From Achromobacter xylosoxidans A8 (lineage in GTDB: Bacteria; Pseudomonadota; Gammaproteobacteria; Burkholderiales; Burkholderiaceae_B), in NCBI RefSeq assembly GCF_000165835.1, contig NC_014640.1, forward strand, positions 1,798,001-1,862,000: a DNA stretch of 64,000 nt, given 5' to 3'. The first letter of the stretch is position 1, and every line of letters starts with the position of its first letter. Shown here piece after piece: positions 1 through 6,310 of this stretch. Under the pieces are notes generated by a model. That model was not told the DNA's origin and did not search any database. It was given only the letters and a program-made list of their open reading frames with translations. A program made the position numbers and the translations under genes.

Positions 1-1053
1 CGCACGCGCCGCCGCGAAGTCCGATACCGCCCCTGCCGGCTGGCCCAGGCGCTGGCGCGCGTAGCCGCGCTGCGCGAGCAACTGGGCTGAGCCCGGCTGG
101 CGGGCGATGGCGTCGCTCAAGCGCGCTTCCGCTTCGGCGGCTTGGGCCTTGGTGCCCGCGGCCAGCGTGGTCGTCAACAGCTGGGCGTAGCTTTCGTTGT
201 CGGGCGCTTCGGCCACGGCCTGGCGGGCCAGGACGATGGCTTCCTGGTACGCGCCCTTGTCGTAGGCGGCATAGGCGCCGGTGGCGGCCACGCTGCCCGG
301 GGCTGGCGCGGCGGGCGCCTGGCTCGCGGCGAGCTGTTTCTGGAAGGCCTGTTGCCTGGCTTGCAGCGCGGCCTTGTTGGGCGCGCCCAGCGCCAGCGCC
401 GTGTCGACGGCCTGGCTGGCGGCTTCGTAGCGCTGCTGCGCGCCCAGCGATTCCACCCACAGCAAGGCCCATTCGCCCTGCCTGGGCACGGCGCGGAAGG
501 CGCGCTCGGCGCCCGCGGCGGCGGCTGCGTAGTCCTGGCGTCCATAGTCCGCATAGGCGCGTGCCGCCACGGGGTAAGCGCGCTGGTACGGCGTCTGCGG
601 CGCGGGCTTGCGGACGGGGGGCGACGCTTGCGCCTGAACCTGTGCCTGTGCCGGCGTTTGCGCCGCGGGTTGCGCGGGCGTTGCTGCCACGGCCGGCGGA
701 CGCTGCAGGTTGGCCTTGGCCAGGCGCAGCTCAGGCGTGCCCAAACCGTCGGCGATGGCCGCGTCGGCCGCGCGCGCGGCCTCCTGGCGCTTGCCCTGTT
801 TTTCCAGGGCGTACACCAGCAGCAGACGCAGGCGGGCCACATCCGGCCGCAGGCGGATCGCGTTTTCCGCCATGACCTGGGCGGTTTCGTAATGGCCGGC
901 GTCGTACTGCTTGTAGGCCTGGTCGGCCAGTTGGTAGGCGTCGCCTTCCAGCGGACGTTCGGCTGCGGCGCCAGGTTGCGCGGCGGCTTCGGGAGCCGCC
1001 GCCGTGCACAGCAGCATGGCGGTGAAAGCCAGCGAACGGGAAATAACGGTCAT
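1..1053 (-). CDS. TPR-rich secreted protein, NfrA-like N-terminal part (truncated by window edge)
   Basis: The reading frame starts with ATG at 1053 and stays open to base 1, so only about 351 N-terminal residues are visible. A signal peptide is evident (basic MTVISR start, hydrophobic stretch, Ala-rich cleavage region near residue 25). It is followed by Ala/Gln-rich helical repeats of TPR type, with A-Y-x2-Y-x-A-x2-Y-type periodicity, separated by a Pro/Gln/Ala-rich linker around residues 130-150. Its ATG overlaps the stop of the upstream nfrB by four bases, so the two are translationally coupled. In E. coli, NfrA is the TPR-containing outer-membrane partner of NfrB and the phage N4 receptor. 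Here that role is inferred from gene order and architecture. The C-terminal part, which would hold any barrel, lies outside the window. Confidence 0.65.
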   Translation of the reverse strand, partial: MTVISRSLAFTAMLLCTAAAPEAAAQPGAAAERPLEGDAYQLADQAYKQYDAGHYETAQVMAENAIRLRPDVARLRLLLVYALEKQGKRQEAARAADAAIADGLGTPELRLAKANLQRPPAVAATPAQPAAQTPAQAQVQAQASPPVRKPAPQTPYQRAYPVAARAYADYGRQDYAAAAAGAERAFRAVPRQGEWALLWVESLGAQQRYEAASQAVDTALALGAPNKAALQARQQAFQKQLAASQAPAAPAPGSVAATGAYAAYDKGAYQEAIVLARQAVAEAPDNESYAQLLTTTLAAGTKAQAAEAEARLSDAIARQPGSAQLLAQRGYARQRLGQPAGAVSDFAAARA

Positions 1054-2753
1054 GGAGGAGAGGGCCTGTGCGATAGCGGGTCCGCGGGGTGCTCGGTTTG
1101 CGTCGGGGCGCCTTGCTGGAACGACAGCGCTTCATGCAAGGTCTTTTCGTCGAGCCAGCCCCGCTCCATCAGGATTTCGCCCAGCGGCCGCTTCTCGCGC
1201 GCCTGGATCTCCAGCGCCTGTTCCAGCATCTGGTGGTCGATCGCCTGCCAGGACAGCAGCAGGTCGCCCAGGCGCTGGCGTTGCTGCGCCAACTGGTCGG
1301 TGGACGGGAAGTCATGCATGGTCTTGTCCCAGGCCAGCCGCTTGCCTGTGATCAGGTGGCCGATGAACAGGCGCCAGGCCCGCGCCGCCGCCATGGCGTT
1401 GATGAAGTTGCCGACGATCATGCGCGGCATGGACAGCAGCGCATGTTCCCAGCCGTACATGCGGCCGACGAAGTATGCGCGCTGCACCACGCGCAGCAGC
1501 AGCGCCCCCGCGTTCAGCCACATCAGCGTCACCAGCCAGCCGCCAGGGCGGAAGTACGAGGGGTAGTAGACCTTCCACCAGCCGAAACGGTCGGCCAGGT
1601 AGAAGAGGAAGAAGTTGGCCAGCAGCAGATAGGCCAGGATCGCGATGAACGAGGTGAACAGGCCCTTGCGGTCGCGGAACAGCAGATACTTGGTCGCCAG
1701 CGATCCCGTCCATCCCACCTGCTGCCAGCCTTGCAGGCCGATGCCCAGCGTCCAGCGGGCCTTTTGCCGGTAAGCGGTGCGGAAGGTATTGGGGAAGTAC
1801 TCGCGCACCCCCAGCGGCATCTTGATGGCCGAGACTTTCTCCCGCCCCAGGCCGAACCAGGCGCGGCGGCGGGTCACGTACTCGACCTCGAACTTGCCGA
1901 AGATCTGGCGCATGCCGCGCTGGGCCAGCCGCGCGCCGATGTCGTAATCCTCGGTCAGCGTGTCGGTATTGAAGGGCTGGTTGTTCGTCTCCGCCGCCAG
2001 CACCTCCAAGGCATGGCGCGAGAAGCAGGTGCCCACGCCTGCGGACGGCACCATCCTGGACAGGCTTTCGCGCACCACCAGGTCCTTGGTGTGCCACTCG
2101 GCGAATTCGTCCATGTAGGTGCCGGCGACCAGCTCGTGCCATTCCCGTTCCAGCGAGGTCACCGGCAACTGGATGAAGTCGATGCGCGGCAGCAGGTAGT
2201 TGTAGTACTTCAGTTCCAGCGGGTGCAGCACGTCTTCGCTGTCGTGCAGGATCACGCCGGCAAAGGGCTCGGGCTGCAGCGCGTTCTGCGCGAAGATGGC
2301 CTGCACGATCCAGTTCAGGCAGTCGGCCTTGCAGGTCGGTCCGTCGTGCGGCACTTCCACGCGTATCAGCTGGCGGTAGCGGCGCCGCATGCGCTCTACT
2401 TCCTTGATGGTGCGTTCGTCGTTCTGGTAGGTGCCGGCGAAGATCGTGTAGTTCTTGTATTCCAGCGTCGACACCATGTTTTCCAGCATGGGGGCGATCA
2501 CGTCGTACTCCAGCCAGGCAGGCACCATGATCGCCAGCGGCTGTTCCTGCTTGGCGCGCAGCTGTTCCGCGGTCAGCGCCGCATACTGGCGCTTGACCGT
2601 CAGTCCGCGGCGCAGTTCGCGCAGCCAGAACCAGCCGTCGATGAACAGGTCATCCAGGCTGGACAGCAGGATGATGACGCCGACCACCGCCGTCACGATC
2701 TCCAGGCCGCGGTAGTAGTCGGCGATGAGGTAGGGCCAGTAAAGCGAGGACAT
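1050..2753 (-). CDS. nfrB: NfrB-like membrane glycosyltransferase with C-terminal c-di-GMP-binding MshEN domain
   Basis: 567 residues. A hydrophobic N-terminal segment (about 17-32) precedes a family-2 glycosyltransferase domain with the processive-synthase signatures D-S-E-D at 171-174, T-E-D at 267-269 and Q-K-A-R-W at 330-334. Further membrane segments follow at about 365-390 and 405-425. The C-terminus (494-546) holds two 24-residue MshEN motifs separated by exactly five residues: R-L-G...Leu17...Leu21...Gln24 and P-L-G...Gly10...Leu17...Gln24. In E. coli, NfrB makes a surface glycan under c-di-GMP control, using a sugar supplied by WecB. A GGAG element sits 5-8 bases before the ATG. It lies between the BcsB-like gene and the NfrA-like gene in one operon. 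It is distinct from BcsA, which uses a PilZ domain. Confidence 0.88.
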   Translation of the reverse strand: MSSLYWPYLIADYYRGLEIVTAVVGVIILLSSLDDLFIDGWFWLRELRRGLTVKRQYAALTAEQLRAKQEQPLAIMVPAWLEYDVIAPMLENMVSTLEYKNYTIFAGTYQNDERTIKEVERMRRRYRQLIRVEVPHDGPTCKADCLNWIVQAIFAQNALQPEPFAGVILHDSEDVLHPLELKYYNYLLPRIDFIQLPVTSLEREWHELVAGTYMDEFAEWHTKDLVVRESLSRMVPSAGVGTCFSRHALEVLAAETNNQPFNTDTLTEDYDIGARLAQRGMRQIFGKFEVEYVTRRRAWFGLGREKVSAIKMPLGVREYFPNTFRTAYRQKARWTLGIGLQGWQQVGWTGSLATKYLLFRDRKGLFTSFIAILAYLLLANFFLFYLADRFGWWKVYYPSYFRPGGWLVTLMWLNAGALLLRVVQRAYFVGRMYGWEHALLSMPRMIVGNFINAMAAARAWRLFIGHLITGKRLAWDKTMHDFPSTDQLAQQRQRLGDLLLSWQAIDHQMLEQALEIQAREKRPLGEILMERGWLDEKTLHEALSFQQGAPTQTEHPADPLSHRPSPP

Positions 2754-2765
2754 GGCGTCTCCGGA

Positions 2766-4979
2766 TTACTTGCTGTCCTTGTTCTTCCTGCGGCTGACGC
2801 GCAAGGCGGCGATCAGGATCAGGAGCAGGATCAACAGGCCCACGCTCAGGGCCGGCACGCTCCACGACAGGTAGTTGCGCCACTCGAAGAAGGCGCTCGC
2901 GCCCGCGCCCGGCGGCTGGCCGGCGGCGGGGTTGGCGCTGTCGATCCAGGCCAGCGGCCCCGCCGCGCCGATGATGGCGATGTTGCCGCGGTTCAGCACG
3001 AAGGGCGTCTGCGGCATGGCCGGGCGCTGGCCCAGCGTGTGCCACAGCAGGCCGTCCTGGCCCCCGGCGCGCACCACTTCGGCCGTGCTCAGGTTGTCCA
3101 GCCCGGAAATGTCCAGCCAGGGCGCGCTCTTGCCGTCCACCGTCAGCTGCTTGCGGTCCGTGACCTTGACCATGGGCTTGGCGCCGTCCACGGCGACTTC
3201 CATCGCGACGAATGGGCCGCCGGGCTTGGCCGTCTGGCCCGCCGGCGTGAGCGACAGCGCCGCGCGCGTGGCCGACAGGCCGCTGGCCGTGGCGATGCCG
3301 ATGACGCGTTGCAGGCTGGCGGGCGCGTCGGCCAGATAGGTGTCGGGGACCAGCAGCTGAGGACTGCCGGCCAGCAGCGGCAGCAGCCCCACGAAGGTGC
3401 CATCGGGCTGCGCGCGGCCCGGCTTCACGTAGCTGGTGGGCAGCACGTTCACCGGATAGCCTTGCGGGATTTCGTTGCAATCCACCGATACCGGCTGGCG
3501 CTGGAAGGTGACGCGCACCGCGTTGTTCAGGCCCAGGGCGTAGCCGGGCACGCGCGCCGTGAGGCGCTCGGGATGGCCGTCGGCGTCCATCTGTTTGGCG
3601 GCCAGCAGAATGCCGTTCCAGAACACCGAGGCGACCGGGCGCGTGGCGGAGGCGCCGGGCGCGGCGGCCAGGTCCATGACCAGTTCGTCCGGCATGCTGC
3701 CGTCCGCGGAAACGGCGGCCAGCGCGAACGTGGCGTTCCAGTCGCCGCGCGCGACCACGTCGAAGCTGGCGGACGATCCGCCCAGCGCCGTCAGGCGCAT
3801 GCCTTCCGTGGCCGAGGCTTGCGGCGGCTCGGCCGCCTTGACTTGCGCCTGGCGCGTAACCAGGATGCGGCGCCAGGCCGTGTCGAAGGCGCCCGCGCCC
3901 TGCGCGCCGGCATTGGCGGCCACCGCGATCACCGCCTGCCGGCCCAGCGGCGCCAGGCGGATCTCCTTGGATGGCAGGTCCTGGCCGGCCAGCGGCATGC
4001 GCCGCTGGCGCCATGCCTTGAAGGCCTCCGCGGCGTCGGCGTCCTGCGCCAATTGCGCCTGCAAGGCGTCCAGCGCCTCGCTGTAGCGGGCGCGCAGCGC
4101 GGCGTCCGCGATCACCACGTCGCCGCTGACCGCGGGGGCGCCCATGACCAGCAGCGCGCCGATCTCGGCGGGGCTGGCCAGCTTGTGCTTGTCATTGCCC
4201 GCCAGGGCCGCGAACGCAGGCACCTGCCCAAGTCCGTTCGGCGCCTGCAGGCCGTGGGTGTCGATCTCGTCGCCCACAGTTGGGAAGGCGTGCACCGCGA
4301 CCCGCTTGCCGCTGCGCTCCATCGCCACGCCCATGCGCCAGGCGCTGTCGAACGCCTGCTGGTCGAGCTTGGCGCCCGCCACCATCAGCACGGGCTTGCC
4401 GGGCAGGGTGCTCCAGGCCTCGTCCAGGCTGCCGATGGCCGAGGCGTCGTAGCGGTAGCTCAGGCGTGTGCGCGGCGAAATCATCAGGGCGTTGGCGGTG
4501 GCGCGGTTGCTCTCGCACTGGCGCTGCGCGATCTCCGATTGCCAGTCCACCGCCAGGCGCACGAAGCCCGTGTCGCGCACGCGCTGCTCCACGTTCAGCT
4601 TGCGCGTGGCCGATCCCTCGCCGTCGGCGATGCGCTGCGCGGTCTGCGGCACGCCGTCCACCCACAGCACCATGCTGGCGCGGCCTGGTTCGCCCTTGAT
4701 GTAGCGCGCGTCGAAGTCCAGCGTGGCATCGGCTATCGGCACGCCGCGGGGGACCGGCAGGTAGAACTCCTGGCGCGCGTCGCTATTGCTCAGCACCACG
4801 GGCTCGCGGATGCCCAGATCCTCCAGGCTGGTGTCGCGCGTGACCCAGTCGTCGCCCAGCAAGCGCCGCAAGGCGTCGCCCGCGGGACTGGCCATCGCTC
4901 CCAAGGGGAGCAGCAACCCGGCGGCGATCAGGGCGCGGCAAAGGGTGCGGGCGGCATGGGAATGCGGGGCATGGGGCAT
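2766..4979 (-). CDS. BcsB-like periplasmic glycan-export subunit, membrane anchored
   Basis: 737 residues starting at ATG 4979 (GGAG just upstream). A signal peptide (about 1-34, ending at A-M-A) precedes a large periplasmic region with two repeats of the type seen in cellulose-synthase regulator BcsB, including the E-F-Y-L-P-V-P-R-G segment near residue 70 and a conserved R-x-L-S-Y-R stretch near 160. A single transmembrane helix (about 708-728) is followed by a short Lys/Arg-rich cytoplasmic tail. BcsB forms a periplasmic channel with the synthase BcsA. Here the only synthase nearby is the NfrB-like glycosyltransferase encoded immediately downstream (12-base gap), so this protein probably escorts the NfrB product. 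The BcsB match is by overall pattern, so specific function is inferred. Confidence 0.72.
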   Translation of the reverse strand: MPHAPHSHAARTLCRALIAAGLLLPLGAMASPAGDALRRLLGDDWVTRDTSLEDLGIREPVVLSNSDARQEFYLPVPRGVPIADATLDFDARYIKGEPGRASMVLWVDGVPQTAQRIADGEGSATRKLNVEQRVRDTGFVRLAVDWQSEIAQRQCESNRATANALMISPRTRLSYRYDASAIGSLDEAWSTLPGKPVLMVAGAKLDQQAFDSAWRMGVAMERSGKRVAVHAFPTVGDEIDTHGLQAPNGLGQVPAFAALAGNDKHKLASPAEIGALLVMGAPAVSGDVVIADAALRARYSEALDALQAQLAQDADAAEAFKAWRQRRMPLAGQDLPSKEIRLAPLGRQAVIAVAANAGAQGAGAFDTAWRRILVTRQAQVKAAEPPQASATEGMRLTALGGSSASFDVVARGDWNATFALAAVSADGSMPDELVMDLAAAPGASATRPVASVFWNGILLAAKQMDADGHPERLTARVPGYALGLNNAVRVTFQRQPVSVDCNEIPQGYPVNVLPTSYVKPGRAQPDGTFVGLLPLLAGSPQLLVPDTYLADAPASLQRVIGIATASGLSATRAALSLTPAGQTAKPGGPFVAMEVAVDGAKPMVKVTDRKQLTVDGKSAPWLDISGLDNLSTAEVVRAGGQDGLLWHTLGQRPAMPQTPFVLNRGNIAIIGAAGPLAWIDSANPAAGQPPGAGASAFFEWRNYLSWSVPALSVGLLILLLILIAALRVSRRKNKDSK

Positions 4980-5008
4980 GGAGGCTCCGGTGGTGGGGAC
5001 TGGGGCGG

Positions 5009-6163
5009 CTAGCGGGCCGCGGCAGGCGCCTGAGGCGAAAACTCGGTGACGGCGCGGCCGCAGAGCGCGTCGACGATGCGCTGGCTGGCGAGGCCGTCGC
5101 CATAGGGATTGATGCGGCGCGAGAAAGCGGCGTGCAGTTCCGGGTGGTCGAGCAGGCGGTTCACTTCGGCCAGGATGCGCTGCGTGTCGGTGCCGACCAG
5201 CGTCACGGTGCCGGCCTGCACGGCCTCCGGGCGCTCGGTGACGTCGCGCATCACCAGCACCGGCTTGCCCAGGTAGGGCGCTTCTTCCTGCACGCCGCCC
5301 GAGTCGGTCAGGATCAGGTAGGCGCGCTGCATGAACCAGACGAAGTCCAGGTAATCCAGCGGGGCGATCAGGTGCACGCGCGACAGGCCGTCCAGCTGCG
5401 CCATTACTACGTTGCGCACTTGCGGATTCAGGTGCACGGGATAGACGATCTGCAGATCCTCGCGCCGCGCCAGTTCGGCCAGGGCGGCGCAGATATGCCG
5501 GAAGCCGTCGCCGAAGCTTTCGCGCCGGTGCCCGGTGACCAGCAACAGGCGGCGCTGCGGATCCAGCCAGCCGTAGCGTGTCGCCAGTTGCTGCGCCAGC
5601 GCGCCCTCGGGGGCGAGCTTGCCGCAGGTCAGGGCCAGCGCGTCGATCACGGTATTGCCGGTGACGGTGATGCGCCCCGACAGGTTTTCGCGCAGCAGGT
5701 TGGCGCGCGATTGCGCCGTGGGCGCAAACAGCCAGTCGCCCACCGCATCGACCACGCGGCGGTTCATTTCCTCGGGGAAGGGCTTGGCCAGATCGCCGGT
5801 GCGCAGGCCGGCTTCGACGTGGCCGATGCGCGCACGGCGGTGGAAAGAGGCCAGCGCGCAGGCCGACGCGGTGCTGGTGTCGCCATGGACGAGCACGCAA
5901 TCGGGCTGCTCCGCCTCCAGCACGCTGTCCACCCGGCTGATCAGCCGCGCGTACAGGCCGTTGAGCGTCTGGTTGGGCACCATGATGTCCAGGTCGTGCT
6001 GCGCCCGCAGATCGAACAAGGCCATCACCTGATCCAGCATCTCGCGATGCTGGCCCGTCACGCAGACGACGCTCTGGATCCGGGGTTCGCCTTGCAACGC
6101 GGCCACCAGGGGCGCCATCTTGATCGCTTCGGGACGGGTCCCGAATATGGAAAGGACTTTCAT
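5009..6163 (-). CDS. wecB: UDP-N-acetylglucosamine 2-epimerase (non-hydrolysing)
   Basis: 384 residues, normal length for WecB/MnaA. It interconverts UDP-GlcNAc and UDP-ManNAc in the cytoplasm. Visible family motifs are G-T-R-P-E-A-I-K at 8-15, H-G-D-T-S-T-A, H-V-E-A-G-L-R-T, P-F-P-E-E-M-N-R and T-G-H-R-R-E-S-F-G, with the Asp, Glu and His residues used in catalysis. It is the first gene of the minus-strand operon, 29 bases before the BcsB-like gene. In E. coli the NGR glycan depends on WecB, which is encoded elsewhere; here it is physically linked, supporting an aminosugar (ManNAc-type) glycan product. No clear Shine-Dalgarno element precedes ATG 6163. The function is clear; the assignment to this particular glycan is inferred from the operon. 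Confidence 0.95.
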   Translation of the reverse strand: MKVLSIFGTRPEAIKMAPLVAALQGEPRIQSVVCVTGQHREMLDQVMALFDLRAQHDLDIMVPNQTLNGLYARLISRVDSVLEAEQPDCVLVHGDTSTASACALASFHRRARIGHVEAGLRTGDLAKPFPEEMNRRVVDAVGDWLFAPTAQSRANLLRENLSGRITVTGNTVIDALALTCGKLAPEGALAQQLATRYGWLDPQRRLLLVTGHRRESFGDGFRHICAALAELARREDLQIVYPVHLNPQVRNVVMAQLDGLSRVHLIAPLDYLDFVWFMQRAYLILTDSGGVQEEAPYLGKPVLVMRDVTERPEAVQAGTVTLVGTDTQRILAEVNRLLDHPELHAAFSRRINPYGDGLASQRIVDALCGRAVTEFSPQAPAAAR

Positions 6164-6310
6164 CGCAAGAACGGGCCCCCTACGCCGGTGGCATTTTCTT
6201 GCGTAGATTATGGATTGAAAGTAATCGTAATATGTGACGGTTTATTTCATAAGAGGGCGGTTGTCGGCGAATGTGGGGGCAATCTGTTGCTTTCGCGCGA
6301 TGGCGATGGC
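6164..6310 (-). promoter_or_regulatory. AT-rich leader, presumed promoter region of the wecB-nfr operon
   Basis: This 147-base gap between two minus-strand transcription units is markedly more AT-rich than its surroundings, especially 6190-6250. It is the only non-coding space upstream of wecB, so the operon promoter is expected here. On the minus strand a CATAAT-like -10 can be seen near 6208-6213, but no convincing -35 lies at proper spacing, so I do not assign a start point. Confidence 0.35.

Follow-up and report, generated by a model that had tools for sequence, protein, structure and literature searches.

An operon in Achromobacter xylosoxidans A8 that holds wecB, a BcsB-like gene, nfrB and an nfrA-like gene raises the question of whether all parts of a glycan synthesis and export apparatus of the NGR (Nfr) type can be carried in one place. 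Computation yields the gene content and order, the predicted folds and the conserved functional residues, and by these the operon very probably specifies a self-contained machine of this type for synthase-dependent polysaccharide production. In the proposed mechanism WecB would convert UDP-GlcNAc to UDP-ManNAc. NfrB, an inner-membrane GT2 synthase, would be activated by c-di-GMP at a C-terminal MshEN motif, polymerise the sugar and drive the chain through the membrane. The BcsB-like protein would be anchored next to NfrB and, in the role that BcsB has for cellulose, take up and guide the chain within the periplasm, and NfrA, composed of a TPR region and an outer-membrane barrel, would release it. 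The product would be a polymer of ManNAc translocated to the cell surface, where it may act as a receptor. The homologue of YbcH encoded convergently to the operon would most likely act in the periplasm as a glycoside hydrolase, trimming or clearing the chain.

Organisation of the operon

The window, i.e., the whole 64,000-nucleotide stretch of DNA that was analysed, corresponds to G000:C1:1798001-1862000 of a 7.36-Mb genome. The genes wecB, bcsB-like, nfrB and nfrA follow each other head to tail on the minus strand as one packed unit, with 29 bp between the first two, 12 bp between the BcsB-like gene and nfrB, and a 4-bp overlap of nfrB and nfrA, in agreement with the tightly packed operon described in a first-pass annotation of this DNA. 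The first gene, wecB (5009..6163), encodes a non-hydrolysing UDP-GlcNAc 2-epimerase of 384 aa. It is followed by the gene for the BcsB-like periplasmic, membrane-anchored subunit (2766..4979, minus strand), which is 737 aa long; the 1044-aa open reading frame listed for it by the program starts too early, inside wecB. The third gene, nfrB (1050..2753, minus strand), encodes a processive-type GT2 synthase of 567 aa with a C-terminal MshEN-type motif. Positions 1..1053 on the same strand hold the 5′ part of nfrA, 351 of its 775 codons, comprising a signal-peptide-like start (by inspection) and the TPR region. This gene is cut by the window edge and continues to G000:C1:1796726; reading on downstream, as had been advised, gives a complete protein of 775 aa (G000:C1:1796726-1799053). 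By the gene coordinates, 147 bp of intergenic DNA lie upstream of wecB (6164..6310, unstranded). This stretch is the likely site of the operon promoter, and a scan of it with the sigma-70 consensus returned zero sites.

The span first annotated, 1..6163, captures the operon but stops before the rest of nfrA and before two further genes, one for a 144-aa protein that looks secreted and one, convergent, for the 326-aa DUF4434 protein that is the homologue of YbcH. Farther out, a YidB-like gene and a lytic transglycosylase gene (Pfam) lie on the same strand as ybcH, and crotonase-like and CoA-transferase-like frames, named by inspection of their translations, occupy the other flank of the operon. 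The 144-aa protein between nfrA and ybcH (L002:6226-6660, or G000:C1:1796226-1796660, minus strand) is without a Pfam match and has homologues in only two, L020 and L027, of the 80 best-matching named NfrB loci, which were taken from at least 573 candidates.

The NfrB synthase

An alignment of NfrB with its E. coli counterpart covers 543 residues at 43% identity (E 7e-143, 419 bits), and two GT2 families of Pfam match the A8 protein at E 8.6e-39 and 1.1e-34. The NCBIfam NfrB model gives 571 bits, under its curated cut-off of 1170, and a related unnamed glycosyltransferase model gives 939 bits, above its cut-off of 537. The GT2 motifs DxD, TED and QxxRW are present and form invariant alignment columns. 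Residues D171, D269, W334, L495, G496 and L543 are equivalent to D169, D267, W330, L490, G491 and L537 of the E. coli protein. In the parts of Junkermeier and Hengge (2021, PMC8669469) that were available, phage N4 plating is not complemented by the D169A, D267A and W330A variants of E. coli NfrB and is moderately reduced with L490A and L490/537A, the strongest reduction being that of G491L.

The MshE-related c-di-GMP-binding motif of NfrB extends over residues 494-546 (1116..1274, minus strand). It is matched by NCBIfam NF053729 with 58.3 bits (cut-off 38), and phmmer against PDB sequences aligns the stretch with MshE (5htl, E 5.7e-4) and PilF (6f8l, E 4.5e-7). The Pfam MshEN model matches E. 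coli NfrB at 542-628 but not the A8 protein, which ends earlier, so that the stretch matched in E. coli is missing here. The distance from the start of the WDKTxH motif to the end of the protein is 93 residues, as against 276 in E. coli. Because NfrB ends before the MshEN-matched stretch, its binding of c-di-GMP may be weaker or absent. The short form is present in 33 and the longer form in 47 of the best 80 of at least 573 candidate loci. The A8 NfrB shares 98% identity with that of Achromobacter xylosoxidans B_1 (L020), and the two group in the tree with a support of 100/97. In this tree the BcsA and PgaC outgroup branches are maximally long; its rooting was therefore left unused and it is uninformative on any grouping with BcsA or PgaC.

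Several irregular NfrB frames were encountered. The E. coli-type frames of L111 and L112 (516 and 488 aa) end 15-16 residues after the WDKTxH start and are devoid of the c-di-GMP motif; wecB and ybcH are present in these loci and nfrA was unrecognised. The NfrB matches of genomes G419, G437 and G428 each contain two in-frame TGA codons, representing frameshifted tails or broken copies. Two different NfrB loci are found in one Alcaligenaceae MAG (L045 and L060) and in Paraburkholderia unamae (L031 and L070).

Distribution of the gene set

Under a strict coordinate rule, 62 of the 80 named loci show all four genes closely packed in this order, and some of the misses stem from the rule itself, contig ends or broken frames. 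Scored gene by gene, anywhere in the locus above the score threshold, the BcsB-like protein is found in 78, WecB in 71 and NfrA in 79 of the 80. Since these loci are the best-matching ones of at least 573 candidates, all counts over them describe near relatives and not NfrB proteins at large. The co-occurrence of the four-gene set exceeds chance. A gene-order search for E. coli-type loci gave wecB in 8 of 8 and the BcsB-like gene in none of the eight that were evaluable. In a survey of the genus, NfrB was present in 33 of 43 genomes.

The convergent YbcH homologue

The YbcH homologue belongs to the DUF4434 family (Pfam, E 7.1e-49) and is 25% identical to E. coli YbcH over 259 residues (E 7e-10); a PDB sequence search with its profile gave no relative (best E 0.47). 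It is present in 35 of the 43 genomes of the genus and shares a contig with NfrB in 32 of the 33 that are NfrB-positive. The predicted model is a TIM barrel of the glycoside-hydrolase type in which strands 153-162 and 257-261 carry Glu. The signature of clan-A-like (4/7) glycoside hydrolases is a TIM barrel with catalytic Glu residues ending strands 4 and 7. The model displays this signature, with Glu161 at the end of strand 4 and Glu261 at the end of strand 7, and both residues, together with Asp229 after strand 6, are invariant in 28 of 28 aligned sequences, E. coli YbcH included. On the strength of the model, YbcH is probably a glycoside hydrolase; it is placed in no particular family of these, since many barrel families match it.

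The three invariant acids and the type of barrel argue against a non-catalytic scaffold or carbohydrate-binding protein, comparable to the 'putative scaffold protein' of E. coli, although the structure matches spread over many barrel families, with sugar epimerases and other non-hydrolase barrels among them. Such a role is unlikely without being negligible. In many clan-A hydrolases the strand-4 acid is preceded by Asn, and YbcH lacks this residue, which favours the scaffold. So does the behaviour of E. coli YbcH, which the available parts of PMC8669469 describe as dispensable for phage N4 infection, with a ybcH deletion that suppresses the motility defect only partly.

NfrA and the sugar probably provided by WecB

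The C-terminus of NfrA is matched by Pfam NfrA_C at residues 634-770 (E 2.6e-27), so that the TPR gene does have the outer-membrane C-terminus expected of it. TPR_19 reaches E 3.2e-4 and 21.4 bits, under its cut-off of 25. In pairwise comparison the protein is barely alignable with E. coli NfrA (best segment 1e-4).

WecB is assigned by Pfam Epimerase_2 (E 2.7e-116) and by NCBIfam TIGR00236 with 462.8 bits (equivalog cut-off 210). A second Epimerase_2 gene of the genome scores 220 bits with TIGR00236, just above the cut-off. This UDP-GlcNAc 2-epimerase is located at L105 (G000:C1:6755501-6775500) in an O-antigen-like cluster, amid dehydratase/epimerase and glycosyltransferase genes of polysaccharide synthesis. 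Because of its existence, linkage alone is no proof that NfrB uses ManNAc. The operon-borne WecB could serve another pathway, e.g., O-antigen synthesis, and NfrB could polymerise a different sugar, which would make the linkage incidental. The fact that a ManNAc polymer is proposed or postulated, and not chemically shown, in what was available of the two 2021 papers (PMC8669469, PMC8669472) lends this some room. It is nevertheless improbable, as wecB accompanies nfrB in the 71 of the best 80 loci and the eight E. coli-type loci counted above, and as the second epimerase has an O-antigen-like cluster of its own. Moreover, the accessible text of Junkermeier and Hengge (PMC8669469) reports frequent linkage of nfrB and wecB, with direct association wherever another wecB is lacking. 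UDP-ManNAc would be the substrate in the favoured mechanism.

The BcsB-like subunit

Pfam BcsB matches the second gene product over residues 48-181 only (E 1e-4, 21.3 bits, cut-off 21). The predicted model has the full BcsB fold, with a match over the periplasmic part of BcsB at 7-13% identity to BcsB chains in structure comparison. In the model, residues 698-736 (2772..2888, minus strand) form a C-terminal helix that is a probable transmembrane anchor in the inner membrane. At E 0.01 the family profile leaves the bcs locus of E. coli unmatched, it found no relative among PDB sequences (best E 0.35), and a search with PF03170 found no second BcsB in the A8 genome.

The BcsB fold speaks for a variant Bcs or Pga (PNAG) system, with NfrB as a BcsA-related glucan synthase or a synthase of the PgaC kind, but this is very improbable, since NfrB scores 20.0 bits with E. 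coli BcsA and 22.7 bits with PgaC, i.e., at chance level, against the 419 bits with E. coli NfrB, the PilZ domain of a BcsA-type synthase is absent from it (Pfam, E 0.01), its 19.3 bits with the PgaC model TIGR03937 (NCBIfam, cut-off 422) set it apart from PgaC-type synthases, neither a PgaB-type deacetylase nor a BcsZ-type hydrolase is among the nine locus proteins scanned with Pfam, and the linked sugar enzyme is WecB. The claim that the glycosyltransferase sides with NfrB and not with BcsA or PgaC is therefore upheld by pairwise comparison, and the sequences support the assignment of the genes as a putative NGR-type synthase and export locus.

A predicted acylation module in sister loci

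In a number of sister loci the operon is joined by genes for acylation. In L126, from the same genus, the order is wecB, bcsB-like, nfrB, nfrA, two algX-like genes, MBOAT, carrier, adenylating enzyme, algF-like, acyl-CoA dehydrogenase and convergent ybcH. The A8 genome has no match to AlgX (PF16822), for which the positive controls G138 and G133 were matched, and thus is without the module. Of the 33 genomes in the genus that have NfrB, 20 score above cut-off for AlgX; the 13 others include A8 and the next eight genomes by NfrB score (91-98% identity). G419 (NfrB identity 91%) and G437 (90%) are AlgX-positive. In the 10-kb flanks around the named 80 loci, YbcH and the module had looked like alternatives. 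This was rejected, as every one of the 33 genomes with NfrB in the genus has a YbcH relative and ybcH lies just past the module in the four module-bearing or variant clusters followed beyond the flank (L126-L129).

Among the best 80 of at least 573 candidate loci, 33 have the MBOAT of this family, and all 33 proteins terminate in FLYFQF. This end fits the acyl-shuttle motif FXYXXF, which PMC12148441 (in the part available) gives for DltX and for fused MBOATs. A homologous carrier protein and adenylating enzyme accompany the MBOAT in 28 of the 33 (28/80). Each of these 28 module loci has two AlgX-like places, an AlgF-like gene and a carrier serine in a G-[LI]-x-D-S context, and the two carriers tested are matched by Pfam PP-binding (E 9.2e-9 and 2e-9), as is appropriate for a phosphopantetheine serine. 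The adenylating enzyme is encoded on the MBOAT strand in 22 loci and on the opposite strand in 6. Its best families are the DltA models; the three enzymes tested reach 310-329 bits with TIGR01734 (cut-off 560). For the SGNH proteins tested, the matching family is PF16822 AlgX and not DltD. AlgF comes last in 18 of the 28 loci. An acyl-CoA dehydrogenase follows it in 16, all of them among these 18, and was not found in the other two, L033 and L060, within the locus DNA examined.

Variants of the module exist. In L054, L061 and L088 a shorter MBOAT (453-471 aa) occurs without carrier or adenylating enzyme, fitting an acetylation of the acetyl-CoA type. In L031 and L034 there is a weak carrier match, and an FkbH-like protein replaces the adenylating enzyme (L031:16936-18840 and L034:16755-18704), possibly for a glyceryl-type group; L031 also has a glyoxalase-like gene. 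In the cluster of G405 (L127), a gap at the site of the FkbH-like protein of the variant agrees with it in size. AlgF-, MBOAT- and AlgX-like genes are also seen in an Achromobacter genome without NfrB (L130, G410), as part of another acylated polymer locus. The A8 genome itself carries a separate DltD-DltB-DltA operon (L123:5762-9878, G000:C1:673762-677878), which may correspond to the dra locus of Bordetella.

In the module loci the DltA-like enzyme would load an amino acid or related acid onto the dedicated carrier, from which the group would pass to the MBOAT with its fused acyl-shuttle end, on to the AlgX-like transferases and to the polymer. Because the module depends on a carrier protein with DltA-like loading, the decoration would not be simple acetate from acetyl-CoA. 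The carrier-bound group may also be oxidised, as hinted by the dehydrogenase that is present where AlgF is last (16 of 18 loci). A name for the acyl group was rejected, the adenylating enzyme being nearest to DltA yet under its cut-off. This enzyme is 52% identical to the DltA-like enzyme of the A8 DltD-DltB-DltA operon, and both have Gln where a Gram-positive DltA has an aligned Cys, a residue that matters for D-alanine. Nor is the acyl-CoA dehydrogenase usable to name the group, as it matches several families, all under cut-off, a prolyl-carrier dehydrogenase among them.

The joint reading, with arguments for belief and doubt in about equal balance, is that the NGR-type glycan of the BcsB-bearing family is processed by YbcH as a dedicated retaining glycoside hydrolase and, in the 28 module loci of the best 80, decorated by carrier-dependent acylation, the A8 lineage having the version without the module.

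Relation to known systems

The locus resembles nfrBA-ybcH of E. coli K-12, which specifies NGR, the N4 glycan receptor, in having NfrB with its glycosyltransferase and c-di-GMP residues, NfrA, YbcH and WecB. In E. coli wecB is part of the ECA operon, whereas in A8 it is inside the nfr operon, and A8 has a BcsB-like subunit unlike the E. coli locus. NfrB is 567 aa long in A8 compared to 745 in E. coli, NfrA 775 compared to 990, and ybcH is convergent in A8 and last in the operon in E. coli. The BcsB fold is held in common with the Bcs cellulose synthase, but the A8 synthase is NfrB and not BcsA.

The clustering of nfrA, nfrB, wecB and a BcsB homologue is already in print. In the available parts of Sellner et al. 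(2021, PMC8669472), an A. xylosoxidans cluster is described with the same four core genes, essentially the same finding in the same genus. That cluster has O-acetyltransferase homologues, in contrast to the A8 genome with its lack of AlgX (PF16822). New here are the fold-level support for BcsB from the predicted model and the distribution among near relatives, the prediction of YbcH as a hydrolase with its genus-wide co-occurrence, and the carrier-dependent acylation module. The main texts of both 2021 papers, as available, name acetyltransferases and are free of the terms 'Dlt' and 'alanyl'. A listing-level literature search and the part of PMC12148441 available gave no recognised publication of a carrier-dependent module acting on an exopolysaccharide.

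Elements of dlt/dra D-alanylation (Dlt in Gram-positives, dra in Bordetella) and of alginate O-acetylation (AlgI/J/X/F) are combined in the sister module, with its DltA-like enzyme, carrier and MBOAT beside AlgX- and AlgF-like proteins. The differences are that AlgX-like SGNH proteins replace DltD, that the MBOAT carries FLYFQF as a fused end and that 16 of the 18 AlgF-last loci add the acyl-CoA dehydrogenase.

A role of the glycan as phage receptor in Achromobacter, suggested by Sellner et al. (PMC8669472, in the text available), is contested and may be proposed with caution. The N4-like phage phiAxp-3 is reported to bind LPS, and its tail sheath protein shares 54% identity with gp65 of N4 (PMC5862860, in the part available).

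The BcsB-bearing, wecB-linked operon is a compact system in which a synthase and its periplasmic guide come together with an exporter and an enzyme that probably degrades the product. If the module delivers carrier-bound acyl groups, it would depart from the pattern in the available part of PMC12148441, where non-Dlt MBOAT/SGNH pathways are without a similar carrier protein. In what is available of the 2021 papers (PMC8669469, PMC8669472), the chemistry of the NGR glycan is only postulated. YbcH, if it is a hydrolase, would be a ready tool to free NGR oligosaccharides and settle their composition.
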